Source: a virus
DNA: 35,828 nt
Virus record (IMG/VR): IMGVR_UViG_3300045996_000342
Coordinates: 1 to 35,828 of that record
Strand: one strand, 5' to 3'
The position numbers and the translations under genes were made by a program. Of this stretch, positions 1,875 to 29,279 are shown in pieces. Numbering within the stretch: the first letter of the stretch is position 1; each line of letters begins with the position of its first letter. The notes beneath the pieces were generated by a model. The model was not told the DNA's origin. It did no database searches and saw only the letters and a list, made by a program, of their open reading frames with translations.

Positions 1875-2272
1875 GCGACAGCCTGACCATCGAACTGCAC
1901 TCCCGGCAACAAGCCTGGGCCGCCATCAAGGCGCAGCTATTCCCCTTCCTGGCAACCGTGCTGCAAGGGGGAGGGCGGTGGGTTCTCCTGCTCAAGCCGC
2001 AGACGCGCAACCTGCCGCAGAACGCGCTCCTACATGCTCGCCTGACCGAGATTGCCCACAAGCACGAATGGGCGGGGCGCAAGTGGGAAGTAGAGGTGTG
2101 GAAGCGGCTGCTAGTGGCTGCGTGGCTCCGTGCTCGCGGTGATGCCGTGATCGTCCTCCCGGCGCTGGATGGCTACGGGGTGGATGTGGTGTTCCGCCGC
2201 ACCTCGGATCTGACCAAGGCTGAATGCGCGGAACTCATCACCTTTATCGACGCTTGGGAGGCGAACCTGTGA
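1871..2272 (+). CDS. ninB: NinB-like recombination protein
   Basis: The protein is 133 residues, close to lambda NinB (Orf), which binds single-stranded DNA and promotes RecF-type recombination in place of RecFOR. Typical features are the N-terminal basic and hydrophobic segment, KPQTRNLPQNALLHARLTEIA at about 36-56, EWAGRKWEVEVWKRLL, and the acidic C-terminal ELITFIDAW helix. The ATG overlaps the preceding stop (ATGA). Its position two genes before ninG repeats the lambdoid nin-region order. Identity is well supported; activity in this phage is inferred. Confidence 0.88.
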   Translation: MSDSLTIELHSRQQAWAAIKAQLFPFLATVLQGGGRWVLLLKPQTRNLPQNALLHARLTEIAHKHEWAGRKWEVEVWKRLLVAAWLRARGDAVIVLPALDGYGVDVVFRRTSDLTKAECAELITFIDAWEANL

Positions 2273-2466
2273 GCAAGAACTACCACTTTTGCGCGATGAC
2301 GAATGACGGCGCTTCGGTCATCCATGCGGATGGAGTGTGGACTGTCGAGGGAACCCTTGACATCTTTGCTATCCGCCAAAGTGTTGCAGACCAGTTGGCA
2401 GAGAAGCATGGTCGCACGATTGCGCCAGAAAAAATAACCATCCTGTCGCTCACGCGGGTTGACTGA
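2269..2466 (+). CDS. Hypothetical protein, 65 aa
   Basis: The GTG start overlaps the ninB stop (GTGA) and the stop overlaps the ninG start (TGATG). The 65 residues include VIHADGVWTVEGTLDI and a helical QSVADQLAEKHGR segment, then a beta-like ILSL end. I do not recognise the family. It is trapped between ninB and ninG with no spacing, so it should be co-translated with them and may act in recombination, though nothing in its sequence shows that. Confidence 0.65.
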   Translation: MSKNYHFCAMTNDGASVIHADGVWTVEGTLDIFAIRQSVADQLAEKHGRTIAPEKITILSLTRVD

Positions 2467-3041
2467 TGAAGCCCTTTCAGCCCAAGCCCAAAGCCTGCGC
2501 CCACTGCGGCAACAGCTTCCTCCCCCTGCGTGCCATGCAACAGGTCTGCGGACCTCTCTGCGCTGCCCGCAAGGTGAAGCAGGACCGGGCTGCGGCAAAG
2601 GTTGCGCTCAAGGCTCGCAAGGCAGCGCTCAAACGCACCAGCGACTACAAGGCGGAAGCGCAGAAGTCCTTTAACGACTTCATCCGGGCGCGAGACGCGC
2701 ACCTTCCCTGTGTGAGTTGCGGAGTGATTGACCCACCAATGAAGCCGGGAGGGCAGTGGGACGCAGGCCATTTCCTAGGCCGTGGCGCTTACCCGGAACT
2801 GGCGTTCAACGAGGACAACTGCTGGCGGCAATGCAAGTCCTGCAACGCGGGAAGCGGCAAGTTCTCGCACAAAGCGCGGACGGTCGCTGAGAAGTACGAG
2901 GCAGAACTGCTGAACAGGATCGGCCCTGAACGGCTGGCTGCGCTCAAGGGACCGCACCCGCCGAACCAATACCGCAAGGCCGATTACGAGGCCATCCGCG
3001 AAACCTACCGACTCAAACGCAAGGAACTGGAGAGCAAATGA
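2466..3041 (+). CDS. ninG: NinG-like (Rap) Holliday-junction nuclease
   Basis: At 191 residues this matches the NinG/Rap family, a structure-specific endonuclease acting on branched recombination intermediates in lambda. The N-terminus carries a zinc-type cluster (C11, C14, C28, C32), followed by a long basic helix (about 36-75). The C-terminal half holds HNH-like motifs: PCVSCG, WDAGHFLGRG, and NCWRQCKSCN with further cysteines. Its place beside ninB fits. Start at 2466 is set by the TGATG overlap. The last bases overlap the next gene (ATGA). Confidence 0.9.
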   Translation: MKPFQPKPKACAHCGNSFLPLRAMQQVCGPLCAARKVKQDRAAAKVALKARKAALKRTSDYKAEAQKSFNDFIRARDAHLPCVSCGVIDPPMKPGGQWDAGHFLGRGAYPELAFNEDNCWRQCKSCNAGSGKFSHKARTVAEKYEAELLNRIGPERLAALKGPHPPNQYRKADYEAIRETYRLKRKELESK

Positions 3042-3406: not shown

Positions 3407-4089
3407 GGGGGCGCCCTTGGTCTCCGCTGGAGCTTGAGCTTTTGCGCGAGCTTTACCCCGACCTGCCAACCGCCGATGTTGCGGCGCTGCTGGATCGGTG
3501 CCCCGGCTCCGTCTACCAGGCGGCGAACCTGCGAGGCATCGCGAAGTCTGCGCAGTTTCTCGCCTCAGTGGCATCCGGGCGCATTCAGCTTGGCAAGCTG
3601 CATCCCAAGATGATCGCCAGCCGGTTCCAGAAGGGCCTGACGCCGTGGAACAAGGGCAAGGCATACAACGCCGGAGGCAAGAGCGTCAATACGCAGTTCA
3701 AGACCGGCACCCGGGCAGGAGCTGCGCTGCGCAACTTCGTGCCCATCGGCACCTACCGCGTGAACGGTGACGGAATCCTGCAGCAGAAGGTGACAGCTAC
3801 CGGGTACGCGCCGAAGGATTGGAAAAGCGTTTCCTCCCTAGTGTGGGCGAAGGAGCACGGTCCGGTTCCGGCTGGCTCCATCGTTGTCTTCAAGCCCGGT
3901 CAGCGCACTACCAATCCTGCGGAACTGACCGTTGACCGCCTGGAGTGCATCACCCGGGCAGAGAACGCCAAACGCAATCACCCCGCCAACCGTGACCCTG
4001 AACTGGCAAAGCTAATCCAGCTCAAGGGCGCGATTACCCGTCAACTCAACCGCATCGAAAGAGAACATGAGCACGCCGCACATCAATGA
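3403..4089 (+). CDS. HNH endonuclease-like protein with N-terminal HTH
   Basis: This 228-residue protein has an N-terminal homeodomain-like helix-turn-helix (WSPLELELLRELYPDLPTADVAALL), a basic middle with PWNKGK, and a C-terminal segment with LVWAKEHGPVPAGSIVVFK and a VDRLECITRAENAKRN ending. The arrangement is common in phage HNH proteins of this type. In the pattern I remember, a histidine stands four residues before the LVW tryptophan, in W-x3-H-x2-LW. Here that place is a serine (S144), so catalysis may be lost. The ATG at 3403 overlaps the previous TGA; longer in-frame starts lie inside the neighbour. Confidence 0.8.
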   Translation: MRGRPWSPLELELLRELYPDLPTADVAALLDRCPGSVYQAANLRGIAKSAQFLASVASGRIQLGKLHPKMIASRFQKGLTPWNKGKAYNAGGKSVNTQFKTGTRAGAALRNFVPIGTYRVNGDGILQQKVTATGYAPKDWKSVSSLVWAKEHGPVPAGSIVVFKPGQRTTNPAELTVDRLECITRAENAKRNHPANRDPELAKLIQLKGAITRQLNRIEREHEHAAHQ

Positions 4090-24422: not shown

Positions 24423-24820
24423 AAGCGAAGCCAGTCCGCATTGTGCAGGGCATGGGTTACGTGCAGTGCGCGGTGGAAGAAGCAACGCACGTTGAGTTGA
24501 GCGTGCCCGGCCCAACCGGCAGGCTGTGGCTTCCGGTGATCATGCGGGGCACCCGTGAGGGCACCGGCTGCTGGACATGGAACGGCAGCACCGACGCGCC
24601 GACACTGCGTCCGAGCGTGCTAACCAATGGCACGTACCGGATGACAGATGAGGAATATCAAGCCATCCGTTCCGGCGTAAAGATTCAGCCGCGTCCTTTC
24701 CGCTGTCACTCATGGATCAATGAGGGCGCAGCGCAGTTTCTAGGCGACTGCTCGCACGAAATGGCGAATCAGACGGTGCCTCTCCTTGATGTGCCTGCCG
24801 ACCCGGAGTCTGCGGAATGA
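24419..24820 (+). CDS. DUF6527-like protein
   Basis: The ATG at 24419 overlaps the holin stop (ATGA). The 133 residues contain a central CWTWNGSTDAPTLRPSVLT segment and the motifs CHSWI (96-100) and FLGDCSHEMANQTVPL (108-122), which I recognise as the DUF6527 pattern. Paired Cys/His residues (C96, H97, C111, H113) suggest metal binding. The gene often travels with phage lysis genes, but the function is unknown. Its stop overlaps the endolysin start. Confidence 0.78.
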   Translation: MKAKPVRIVQGMGYVQCAVEEATHVELSVPGPTGRLWLPVIMRGTREGTGCWTWNGSTDAPTLRPSVLTNGTYRMTDEEYQAIRSGVKIQPRPFRCHSWINEGAAQFLGDCSHEMANQTVPLLDVPADPESAE

Positions 24821-25320
24821 TCCTCCTTGACTCCATCATTCACACGGCCATCAATCCGGCCTTCAAGCTGCTCCCGGCGAAGATGGACAGCGATGCAGCC
24901 CGGGTGATGATGCTCGCCATTGGCCTACAGGAAAGCCGCTTCCAGTACCGATTCCAGAAGGTGAACGGCAACCCCTACGCCAAGGGTCCGGCTCGCGGCT
25001 TCTGGCAGTTTGAGCGCGGGGGTGGGGTTGTCGGCGTCTGCTCGCACCGTCACACGCGAGATCTGGCCGAGGCGGTCTGCAAGACCCAAGGCGTGCCGTT
25101 CGATAGCTCGATGATCCATGCCCGGCTGGAGTTTGATGATGTGCTGGCGGCTGCGTTTGCCCGGCTGCTGCTGTGGGCCGACTCCAAGCCTCTGCCGGGT
25201 GTGGACGCTAGCCATGATGAGGCTTGGGACTGCTACGTGCGCTCATGGAGACCGGGACGCCCCCACCGCTCTACGTGGAACGAGTTTCATAGCGCCGCTA
25301 GGTCGCAGGTAATCTCTTGA
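24817..25320 (+). CDS. Endolysin (lysozyme-like) with replaced C-terminus
   Basis: The 167-residue protein has a lysozyme-superfamily core: the catalytic-type glutamate E39 in GLQESRF, then ARGFWQFE and the helical DVLAAAFARLLLWADS part. No signal peptide is evident, so it needs the holin. The last ~20 residues (PHRSTWNEFHSAARSQVIS) have a diverged second copy ~650 bases downstream, beyond an opposite-strand HNH gene. This suggests its 3' end was exchanged when that gene arrived. The ATG overlaps the DUF6527 stop. The muralytic family is clear, the exact bond cleaved is not. Confidence 0.85.
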   Translation: MILLDSIIHTAINPAFKLLPAKMDSDAARVMMLAIGLQESRFQYRFQKVNGNPYAKGPARGFWQFERGGGVVGVCSHRHTRDLAEAVCKTQGVPFDSSMIHARLEFDDVLAAAFARLLLWADSKPLPGVDASHDEAWDCYVRSWRPGRPHRSTWNEFHSAARSQVIS

Positions 25321-25970
25321 ACTCTGCACCACTTCTTCTGATTCTCCAGCGCCCACAACGGCTGAAGGTTGGAGTAATGGCAAGCGGTGCGAGCCTGAGC
25401 TTCGTCGGTGAGGTCGAAAGCTGCCAACGGCTTCACATGGTCAAGATGCCAAGCGCCGTAGTTGTCCCAACTCATGCCAGGCCCGAAGCGAGCCGCGATG
25501 TAGACGCGGAATTCAGCGATGCTCATGCCGAGATCGCGAACAGCCGACACGCCGCGCGTCTTACCCATCATGGCCTTGCCCAATCGGTGGCGCAAATTCT
25601 TCGCAATGCGACGTTGCAGGTTCTCCGCGAGCTGCTTTGCGTCATAGGCACGCGCCACGGCCAAGTGGCGCTCTCGGTTCTCGGCGCGCCATTTGTGTTT
25701 CCGCTCAATCTGAGCCGCGTTGTATTCGGCGCTCTCGCGACGCCGCTTGCTGCGTTCCCGATTACGGTCTTTGATGCGTTGCGCGGCCTCTTCCGGCGAG
25801 TACAAGATGCGGCGGGCCTTGCCGCTGGCGGCACGCCTCGCCTCACTGGCAGCAAGCGACTTTTCTCTATCGCACCCGACGCAGACGTAGTTCGTGCGTT
25901 GCAGTCCCGCCAGATCTGGGTGCTGCTCGCAAACTTTCCCGATACGAGTTTTCGTGAGAGGTAATCCCAT
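25287..25970 (-). CDS. HNH homing-type endonuclease inserted in the lysis cassette
   Basis: This 227-residue protein starts MGLPLTKTRIGK on the minus strand. It has a Cys pair in YVCVGCDREK, a long highly basic middle (about 45-125, Arg/Lys-rich), and a C-terminal HNH domain: GAWHLDHVKPLAAFDLTD, then ACHYSNLQPLWALENQKK. That is the common free-standing phage homing type. Its last ~11 codons run into the endolysin 3' end, so the genes overlap tail to tail by 34 bases. It is the only minus-strand gene inside the lysis cassette, which supports recent mobility. Confidence 0.88.
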   Translation of the reverse strand: MGLPLTKTRIGKVCEQHPDLAGLQRTNYVCVGCDREKSLAASEARRAASGKARRILYSPEEAAQRIKDRNRERSKRRRESAEYNAAQIERKHKWRAENRERHLAVARAYDAKQLAENLQRRIAKNLRHRLGKAMMGKTRGVSAVRDLGMSIAEFRVYIAARFGPGMSWDNYGAWHLDHVKPLAAFDLTDEAQARTACHYSNLQPLWALENQKKWCRVQEITCDLAAL

Positions 25971-26049
25971 GCACACATTTTACGGCAAGCCGCATCGTGG
26001 AACGTGGGACGCATTTCATGAGCAGGCACGGGCGCAGGTGTTCGCCTGA
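25969..26049 (+). pseudogene. Stranded 3' remnant of the original endolysin gene (26 codons)
   Basis: This frame reads FYGKPHRGTWDAFHEQARAQVFA and stop. It matches the endolysin C-terminus at P-H-R-x-T-W-x2-F-H-x2-A-R-x-Q-V, with many silent codon differences between the copies. The stop overlaps the Rz start (TGATG), the coupling expected between endolysin and spanin. I read it as the ancestral end of the endolysin, cut off by the HNH gene. It carries an ATG, so a 26-residue peptide could still be made and would keep Rz translation coupled. Confidence 0.65.
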
Positions 26050-26492
26050 TGTTCGCTCTGCTCAACCCCCGCTTTCTGATCGGCCTAGTCCTCGTTGCCG
26101 CTCTCGCGTTCTCGCACTTCACCGCCTACAGAAAGGGCAAGCATGTCGTCCTTACCGAATGGCAACTATCTGTTGCCGCCGCGAATGAGGAGAGCCGTCG
26201 CCTTGAGAGGGCGCGTCAGAGCAAGGCTGATGAAGCTGGCCGAGCTGCCGCAAGTCGTGAAGCTGGCATCCGTGCTGACGCTGATCGTGCTCGCAGCTCT
26301 GTTGGCGGGTTGCGCGACGCCATCGAGTCCGCCCAGCGAAGGGGCGCGGAATCCCTTGCCGCCGCCAACAACGCTGCCCGCGTCCTCGGAGACGTTCTCC
26401 AGTCGTGCAGCGCGGAATATCAGCGAGTGGCAGAAGAAGCTGACCGAGCTACTTCCGAAGTGAAGACGCTCAGGGACGCTTGGCCCCAATAA
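26049..26492 (+). CDS. Rz: Rz-like inner-membrane spanin (i-spanin)
   Basis: The 147-residue protein has one N-terminal membrane anchor (about residues 8-24, RFLIGLVLVAALAFSHF). A long periplasmic coiled coil follows (EESRRLERARQSKADEAGRAAASREAGIRADADRARSSVGGLRDAIESAQRR), as in DUF2514-type i-spanins. It pairs with the embedded Rz1 lipoprotein to fuse inner and outer membrane at the last lysis step. The start overlaps the endolysin remnant stop. The presence of a nested Rz1 makes the call secure. Confidence 0.88.
   Translation: MFALLNPRFLIGLVLVAALAFSHFTAYRKGKHVVLTEWQLSVAAANEESRRLERARQSKADEAGRAAASREAGIRADADRARSSVGGLRDAIESAQRRGAESLAAANNAARVLGDVLQSCSAEYQRVAEEADRATSEVKTLRDAWPQ
26230..26463 (+). 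CDS. Rz1: Rz1-like outer-membrane spanin lipoprotein, nested in Rz
   Basis: In a different frame, wholly within Rz, an ATG at 26230 gives a 77-residue protein. Its signal segment (KLASVLTLIVLAALLAGC) ends in a lipobox with C28 as the lipidated residue. The mature part is Pro/Ser-rich (PSSPPSEGARNPLPPPTTLP), as typical of Rz1, and ends in a helical tail (ISEWQKKLTELLPK). It should be anchored in the outer membrane and bind Rz. Nested coding of this kind is classical for lambda-like phages. Confidence 0.88.
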   Translation: MKLAELPQVVKLASVLTLIVLAALLAGCATPSSPPSEGARNPLPPPTTLPASSETFSSRAARNISEWQKKLTELLPK

Positions 26493-27258: not shown

Positions 27259-28412
27259 TGGACGCCCAACTAGTCAGCTTCGCCACCGTCCGCGAACTGG
27301 AGTACATCGAGGGCATCGAGAAGCACGGCACCATCCGCAAGGCTGCAAAGGCGCTCGGCGTCAATCACAGCGTCTTGGGTCGTGCGATGCAGGCGCTCAA
27401 GAAGCGGGCTGCACTCAAGGGATGGAGTCCTGAGCACGACATGACCCGCACCGTCCCGGACGGGTTCAAGGTCAAGGGCGTCAGTTCGCTCTATGTGGAC
27501 GGCAAGCTCTCTAGCCAATGGGTGAAGTCCTCCGCTGACGAGGAACGGCGGGCGCAGCTCATTCGGGAAGCCTTTGACGCGATGGCACAGGATCTGCCGC
27601 GCATCAAGCCGACCGCCGCCCCGAAGGTGTCCACCGATCAACTGGCTACTCTCTACACTCTCACGGATAGTCACGTAGGGATGCTAGCGTGGGCCAAGGA
27701 GGGCGGCGCAGATTGGGATTTGAGCATCGCTGAGGCTACGCTTGTCGGCTGCTTCGCTCAGATGGTCAACGCCTCTCCCGCCTCCCGCGTTGGCTTTGTG
27801 AATCAGCTCGGGGACTTCCTGCACTACGACTCCGCTGTAGCTCCAGTAACGCCCCAGCACGGGCACATCCTTGATTCGGATGGCCGGTTCTCCAAGATGG
27901 TCACTACGGCGGTTCGCATCCTTCGCCGGGTGATAGACCTAGCGCTTGCCAAGCATGAAAAGGTCGTCGTCCTGATGGCCGAGGGCAATCACGATATGGC
28001 GTCTTCCGTGTGGCTGCGGGTGATGTTCCGCGCCCTGTACGAGAACGAGCCTCGCGTCCATGTGATCGACTCCGAGTTGCCGTACTACGTCCACCAGCAC
28101 GGCAAGACCATGCTCGCCTTCCACCACGGACACCTGAAGAAGAACGATCAGCTTCCGATCCTGTTTGCCTCGCAGTTCCCCAAGGTGTGGGGCGAGACGA
28201 CCAAGCGCTACGCCCACTGCGGACACCGCCACCACGTAGAGGAAAAAGAGCACTCGGGGATTACGGTCATCCAGCACGCCACCTTGGCGGCCCGGGATGC
28301 CTACGCTGCGCGGGGAGGGTGGATTGCCGAGCGCCAGGTGTCGGCCATCACATACCACTCTGAGTATGGGCAGGTTGGCCGGGTGACAGTCTCGCCGGAG
28401 ATGCTGTCGTGA
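27255..28412 (+). CDS. HTH-metallophosphoesterase fusion
   Basis: The 385-residue protein has an N-terminal LysR-like helix-turn-helix (YIEGIEKHGTIRKAAKALGVNHSVLGRAMQALKKR, about 17-51) and a calcineurin-like phosphoesterase domain. Metal ligands are D138 and H140 (LTDSHVG), D187 (QLGDF), the GNHD block at 244-247, and HHGH and GHRHH near 290-327. Similar proteins are frequent in proteobacterial phages. The nuclease or phosphatase substrate is not known; an HTH would target it to DNA. The start overlaps the Ntn hydrolase end; ATG 27255 and 27258 are equally possible. Confidence 0.85.
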   Translation: MMDAQLVSFATVRELEYIEGIEKHGTIRKAAKALGVNHSVLGRAMQALKKRAALKGWSPEHDMTRTVPDGFKVKGVSSLYVDGKLSSQWVKSSADEERRAQLIREAFDAMAQDLPRIKPTAAPKVSTDQLATLYTLTDSHVGMLAWAKEGGADWDLSIAEATLVGCFAQMVNASPASRVGFVNQLGDFLHYDSAVAPVTPQHGHILDSDGRFSKMVTTAVRILRRVIDLALAKHEKVVVLMAEGNHDMASSVWLRVMFRALYENEPRVHVIDSELPYYVHQHGKTMLAFHHGHLKKNDQLPILFASQFPKVWGETTKRYAHCGHRHHVEEKEHSGITVIQHATLAARDAYAARGGWIAERQVSAITYHSEYGQVGRVTVSPEMLS

Positions 28413-28567
28413 ACCAATCCCTATTCTGGCTCGGCGTACCAATGGTGATGTACGCGCTACAGGGCTACTTGGTCTATTGGGAGGCAGGGCGCTACGGGAT
28501 GGCGCTGACCATGCTCTCCTACGCGGTTGCGAACATCGGCTTAACGCTAGATGCCTACGGGTACTAG
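28409..28567 (+). CDS. Small membrane protein, 52 aa
   Basis: A GTG overlapping the previous stop (GTGA) opens 52 residues with two hydrophobic segments: about 4-24 (LFWLGVPMVMYALQGYLVYW) and 31-48 (MALTMLSYAVANIGLTL). They are joined by a short polar turn (EAGRYG). It is a likely hairpin inner-membrane protein, translationally coupled to the phosphoesterase. Function is unknown; topology resembles small holins or exclusion proteins. Confidence 0.6.
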   Translation: MNQSLFWLGVPMVMYALQGYLVYWEAGRYGMALTMLSYAVANIGLTLDAYGY

Positions 28568-28646: not shown

Positions 28647-29279
28647 ATGGCTGACGCCGATTCTAAAGCGTGTCGCATTTGCGGGCTCAATCTCCCGTTA
28701 GACAGTTTCCACCTCAACGCTCAGAACAAGAGCGGACGCAGCAACCATTGCAGGGGGTGCCACGCGAAAGCGTGCAAAGAGCGATACGAGCGCACGAAGA
28801 CCTTGCTTGGCGGAACGCAGGCATGTTCACACTGCGGCGCGACCTTTGAACGGGCGCGTTCGGACGCGAATCGGCAGATTTACTGCTCTATTGCTTGTCG
28901 CTTGTGGTCGAAGGTGGACAAGTCGGGCGGCCCGGATGCCTGCTGGCCGTGGACTGCCGCCAGATCTCAAAGTGGGCGTGGGTATGGGATGTTTGTGCTG
29001 GCGACAGGCAAGTACGCACCAGCGCATCGCCTCGCGTGGGAGCTGACCAACGGCCCGATTCCTGGCGGCCTGCACGGTTGCCACAAGTGCGACAACCCGG
29101 TGTGCTGCAACCCCTCACACCTTTTCCTTGGCACTCCCAAGGACAACGCTGACGACAAGGTGCGGAAGGGCCGCCAGCGGACGGTGGTCACTGAGCAATC
29201 ACGGCAGCGTCAAAGAGAGGCATGGGTTCGCCGGAAAGCGCGTGCTGCCGGCTTGACCCTAGACGCTAACGGCTTCTAG
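28647..29279 (+). CDS. HNH endonuclease with zinc clusters
   Basis: The 210-residue protein begins with a zinc-ribbon-like part (CRICGLNLPLDSF...HCRGCHAKACKERY), then a second cluster (CSHCGATF...YCSIAC). It ends with an HNH_3-type domain: HRLAWELTNGPIPGG, then HGCHKCDNPVCCNPSHLFLGTPKDNADDK. All expected His/Asn/Cys positions are present. It is free-standing at the right end of the plus-strand genes, so it is probably a mobile homing endonuclease. The last codons form part of an inverted repeat shared with the convergent gene. Confidence 0.88.
   Translation: MADADSKACRICGLNLPLDSFHLNAQNKSGRSNHCRGCHAKACKERYERTKTLLGGTQACSHCGATFERARSDANRQIYCSIACRLWSKVDKSGGPDACWPWTAARSQSGRGYGMFVLATGKYAPAHRLAWELTNGPIPGGLHGCHKCDNPVCCNPSHLFLGTPKDNADDKVRKGRQRTVVTEQSRQRQREAWVRRKARAAGLTLDANGF

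Follow-up and report, generated by a model that had tools for sequence, protein, structure and literature searches.

Endonuclease open reading frames that carry a foreign gene end are known from fungal mitochondria, where they have been described at atp6 of Allomyces macrogynus and at atp6, atp9, cox2 and nad3 of Glomus sp. (PMC3630166). The native ends at these sites are 91-98% identical to those of relatives while the inserted ends are 64-81% identical (about 91% and about 64%, respectively, for atp6), and the resulting hybrid genes are transcribed (PMC3630166). Phages have free-standing HNH homing endonucleases, such as the HNH genes of Skunavirus (PMC12724721) and HEGs of T4 and ICP1 (PMC10448857), which are tied to flank transfer. 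The excerpts of these accounts considered here describe intergenic or within-gene sites, marker exclusion and one gene divided into two functional parts, and within those excerpts substitute gene ends are not described (PMC12724721; PMC10448857; PMC2248197). An engineered system with a re-coded 3' end is HomeR, a home-and-rescue gene drive (PMC7968924). In the open-access literature we found no report of substitute gene ends in phages, and an earlier one elsewhere is possible.

The locus described here lies in a 35,828-nucleotide stretch of the IMG/VR virus record IMGVR_UViG_3300045996_000342, from an uncultivated phage, hereafter the window. An endolysin-family gene contains an insertion with a foreign substitute end and an HNH gene whose nuclease motif is intact, and the displaced native end keeps its overlap with the Rz-like gene (Table 1). 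Similar to the fungal mitochondrial elements, the endonuclease sits near the 3' end of a conserved gene, with a divergent in-frame substitute C-terminus before it and the native C-terminus left downstream (PMC3630166). However, the fungal elements encode LAGLIDADG or GIY-YIG endonucleases, with the inserted end, the ORF and the native end following the gene in that order (PMC3630166), whereas the phage enzyme is an endonuclease VII-like HNH protein encoded on the opposite strand, with the last 34 nt of its frame antisense to the substitute end. As in the excerpted accounts of the Skunavirus, T4 and ICP1 genes, it is associated with an essential phage gene which such elements adjoin or enter, its presence varies between relatives, and transfer of flanks is expected (PMC12724721; PMC10448857). 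The likeness to HomeR is that a homing nuclease cassette occupies the 3' part of an essential gene and a re-coded 3' end preserves function (PMC7968924), but HomeR is engineered, Cas9-based and used in flies (PMC7968924), while the phage element is natural and has the native end left beyond it. The first-pass annotation had called gene-end regeneration unusual for a homing endonuclease, which holds for phages but not for the fungal mitochondrial elements (PMC3630166). We interpret the inserted segment as probably a free-standing HNH homing-endonuclease element that, when it moves, takes along a recoded end of the endolysin gene it targets.

Table 1. Features of the endolysin-HNH-Rz locus, with coordinates in the window.
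Feature	Coordinates	Strand	Evidence
Native body of the endolysin-family gene (phrog_3108), up to ...RSWRP	24817..25254	+	91% DNA identity to L002/L003; phrog_3108 E 8e-42
Resident endolysin end GRPHRSTWNEFHSAARSQVIS and stop, foreign and brought by the insert	25255..25320	+	61% DNA identity to L003; matches profile end
Inserted segment, 729 bp	25255..25983		Both flanks aligned to natural empty sites L002/L003
HNH / endonuclease VII-like gene, 227 aa, ATG start	25287..25970	-	phrog_1035 E 1.7e-7
26-codon open frame with the native, stranded endolysin end	25969..26049 (native part 25984-26049)	+	L003 identity
Rz-like spanin gene	26049..26492	+	phrog_312 Rz-like spanin E 5.5e-16

The two endolysin ends around an opposite-strand HNH gene, and a 26-codon frame overlapping Rz as TGATG, had been pointed out in the first-pass annotation and are present in the sequence as described. 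The endolysin end that it quoted omitted the final IS, as the whole gene (24817-25320) terminates in PHRSTWNEFHSAARSQVIS followed by the stop codon. The frame of 26 codons reads MHTFYGKPHRGTWDAFHEQARAQVFA and stop (terminal part GKPHRGTWDAFHEQARAQVFA / PHRGTWDAFHEQARAQVFA and stop), with GAGAGG located 7 nt 5' of its ATG, and its TGA (26047-26049) overlaps the ATG of Rz (26049-26051). The endolysin gene keeps a full-length C-terminus, and the native end has moved beyond the HNH gene, where it still overlaps Rz. Since the endolysin frame is complete with its own stop before the rest of the insert, splicing is not required. The insertion point is the conserved motif WRPG/KPHxxTW (at the slash), directly before the predicted last helix of the endolysin, and GG is common to both insert junctions, i.e., there are 2 bp of junction homology and the position is ambiguous by 2 bp. 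The HNH gene has an alternative GTG start at 25976 on the minus strand. No promoter or terminator was detected in 25200-26200, including a promoter for the HNH gene.

Two close relatives, the IMG/VR contigs L002 and L003, lack the HNH gene but encode the same endolysin protein, at 93 and 92% identity, respectively. Both have a single endolysin end, GKPHR(S/G)TWDAFHEQARAQVFA and stop, and this stop codon shares a TGATG overlap with the gene that follows. They are the uninterrupted homologs which had been predicted from the sequence of the window, and all 21 residues of the remnant recur in L003. When compared with L003 DNA, the gene body is identical at 399/438 positions (91%) and the remnant at 59/65 (91%), whereas the resident end is identical at 40/66 (61%). 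Body and resident end differ significantly (Fisher p = 2.3e-9) while body and remnant do not, and the comparison against L002 gave the same picture. The protein comparison with L003 follows the same order, with 141/145 residues shared in the body, 21/21 in the remnant and 12/21 in the resident end. This pattern parallels that of fungal atp6. It indicates that the stranded copy is the native endolysin end and that the working copy is foreign, in agreement with the proposal that the element arrived with a foreign end and left the native one stranded. The likeness of the two ends is not by chance, as the remnant matches the endolysin profile with E = 2.3e-7 and the two flanks of the HNH gene have a protein similarity of 78, compared with a mean of 32 (sd 5.7) in 37 other HNH loci.

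Both ends could instead have been copied from the phage's own gene end at insertion and diverged later. The two copies are homologous and in register, and nearly identical copies are found at some other loci (L148, described below), as a local target duplication would produce. However, the working copy is here the divergent one, while the stranded copy is as similar to L003 as the gene body is, with synonymous changes only. This is the reverse of what local duplication predicts, and we regard it as very improbable; the earlier view that the locus is not a fresh target duplication is borne out. The silent differences between the two ends on which that view was based are likewise found, with 39/66 nucleotides in common and 7 of the 12 codons for shared residues differing. 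The remnant differs from L003 at six nucleotides, each of them in a synonymous codon, which suggests that the native end was displaced recently or that its frame is still under constraint.

The 26-codon frame might also be an independent small gene, e.g., a leader coupling translation to Rz, for which the likeness to the endolysin is incidental or secondary. Its ATG, the plausible GAGAGG, the Rz overlap and the full conservation of its residues with L003 would fit such a gene. However, the same codons form the endolysin end itself in L002 and L003, and among 236 endolysin loci no HNH-free phage has this frame apart from an intact endolysin gene. We therefore give this explanation almost no credence, although the remnant may have gained a role in Rz coupling after its displacement. 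The profile search of these 236 loci, some of which overlap between searches, gave one full endolysin each and no second end above noise; the tandem ends in HNH-free relatives which the first-pass annotation had named as contrary evidence are thus absent from these loci. No HNH gene of the window's family was found in these loci, and there was no second copy at the site; the HNH gene is missing from the otherwise homologous sites of L002, L003 and the 236 endolysin loci.

Among 151 distinct endolysin-family tails, the closest to the resident end shares only 14/21 residues, and the donor is therefore outside the data. A degenerate pattern for the substitute end had no match in IMG/VR, and the end had no significant match in named phages, so that neither search revealed a donor phage. 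GTDB genomes contained no relative of the HNH gene. No second copy of the HNH gene with the same substitute end was found in other phages.

The endolysin structure was modelled at a mean pLDDT of 86. In the model, residues 151-166 form a C-terminal helix that comes after the conserved WRPGxPH loop; the insertion falls within this loop, and the resident end covers the predicted last helix. Because this helix is downstream of the insertion point, a plain insertion would probably remove it, and the substitute end would put it back. The 12 structural matches listed were all lysozyme-superfamily or cell-wall-degrading enzymes with Z values of at most 8.0, and a lysozyme-superfamily-like fold is only suggested by these middling values. 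The gene sits before the Rz-like gene, and its relatives are annotated as lysozyme.

The window's HNH protein and all 18 aligned relatives (19/19) match phrog_1035, endonuclease VII. The window protein retains the invariant WDNYGxWHxDH, P, N, N and K residues, and its active-site motif is intact. It had no Pfam match. As regards the beta-beta-alpha metal fold, its structure model (pTM 0.39, with low confidence in the motif region) had no PDB match. Most HNH relatives stop at most about ten residues past the last conserved lysine, while the window protein continues for 14 residues, most of which are encoded antisense to the substitute end.

A homing event could account for the locus as follows. 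The HNH element would have inserted into the endolysin gene in its 3' part, within the conserved WRPG/KPH motif, with its gene-facing side carrying the endolysin end of another lineage in a different coding. During mixed infection, the nuclease may have cut the empty allele at or near this motif, and repair may have begun at the conserved WRPG codons, through homology to a donor copy. The donor's end and the HNH gene would then have been copied, and the recipient rejoined via the 2 bp homology. Recoding of the new end and splitting of the target would be expected to protect the occupied allele from the nuclease.

The main alternative to homing is that ordinary phage recombination in the WRPG motif brought in the foreign end together with the neighbouring HNH gene, without involvement of the nuclease, and that an illegitimate right junction left the native end in place. 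The region downstream is mosaic among relatives, the left junction falls in conserved codons and the right one has 2 bp homology, all of which passive recombination could produce, and both the nuclease activity of the HNH protein and its homing are predictions from sequence. However, the insert comprises scarcely more than the HNH gene and the substitute end, and duplicated gene ends are also found at five other members of its HNH family, which would be unexpected from a chance event. Passive recombination is thus unlikely, and homing remains our preferred explanation.

The five further genes were found when flanks were compared for 88 HNH genes of the window's family. They are same-strand HNH genes with duplicated target-gene ends in L109, L113, L139 and L148 (two). 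The L109 pair consists of a methyltransferase-like gene with the end KDYKQKKRW and an HNH gene after it with the end KDHKQKKRW, each followed by the stop. The pair in L139 is QFYATIDVYQSGDDPG and KFHTTLDPYQSEVDPG, both with the stop. L148 has two HNH genes which each end like the preceding gene; LEEYGDEI and stop is found in both members of the first pair, inside a 30-bp perfect repeat, while the other pair ends VILEMLGKS and TILEMLGKA, each with the stop. A portal-like gene and the HNH gene of L113 terminate in QPQGP tails that resemble each other. Only a single end is present in HNH-free relatives of the targets in L139 (L349, L350) and L148 (L338, L339, L344, L346). Among named phages, no clear HNH-free relatives were found for the targets of L109 and L156. 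An HNH-like gene also lies right after a homolog of the L148 target in L342 (3810-4664), with no detectable duplicated end, i.e., a different occupancy of the same neighbourhood.

In GC-rich loci, noise made a six-frame, unanchored comparison of flanks unsuitable for counting recurrences, and a stop-anchored test of end similarity (cut-off at least 30) was applied instead, on real gene pairs in which the HNH gene abuts a same-strand upstream gene. This cut-off was reached by 5/58 HNH pairs; the figure was 17/3290 for mismatched pairs (binomial 1.3e-5) and 0/149 for ordinary neighbouring pairs (Fisher 0.0015), a control set from which two L148 HNH pairs were left out; both p values are optimistic, since they were computed on the loci where the pattern was first noticed. 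None of 17 HNH loci of named phages reached a score of 30. With 5/58 pairs in the family and 0/17 in named phages, duplicated target-gene ends at HNH genes appear to be recurrent but not general. Matches in L095, L130, L136 and L139 (minus strand) were dropped as recurrences because they were due to neighbouring HNH genes. Scores of 28 for L154, and of 17 and 15 for the terminase/HNH pairs L332 and L334, were considered too weak. Close pairs of HNH genes of the window's family, or parts of them, occur in L095, L130, L136 and L139.

The window itself has a small gene and a following second HNH gene (HNH_3, of a different family) at 28409-28567 and 28647-29279, which end IGLTLDAYGY and AGLTLDANGF, respectively, before the stop. 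Judging by these tails, the phage may contain a further gene-end duplication. Two loci are candidates for the mirror case, in which the start of a divergent gene would be duplicated on both sides of the HNH gene. In L156, a gene start occurs on each side of the HNH gene, as MAGIVVNVKECEELAPGVL in the intact gene (2280-2939, minus strand) and as MGIEINVKEHKEIAPGVL in a fragment ending at the HNH stop (about 3523-3575, minus strand). The candidate copies in L131 are KIINTTIKKAYRHWKPCHAIRTYH and KIIQKTIRKAYQNWNSTRLIRVFY, from 2244-2714 (minus strand) and from the minus strand just past the HNH stop at 3435.

These loci lead us to a broader proposal, which we make tentatively and with slightly less than even confidence, that phages hold a class of HNH elements for which carrying a recoded end of the target gene is routine and which act as natural home-and-rescue drives. 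At same-strand sites, the displaced native end would become the C-terminus of the nuclease itself, as L109, L113, L139 and (twice) L148 may illustrate, and some elements might replace the gene start instead (candidates L156 and L131).

Neither an intron nor an intein would be needed for a selfish nuclease to occupy the conserved coding sequence of a lysis gene in this way while the gene is kept whole, a gene-preserving route of occupation which, within the open-access literature, has so far been documented for fungal mitochondria. As both empty and occupied alleles are known, target choice and self-immunity are directly testable. The finding also offers a mechanism for the exchange of gene ends between phages and for the variable C-terminal tails of HNH proteins.
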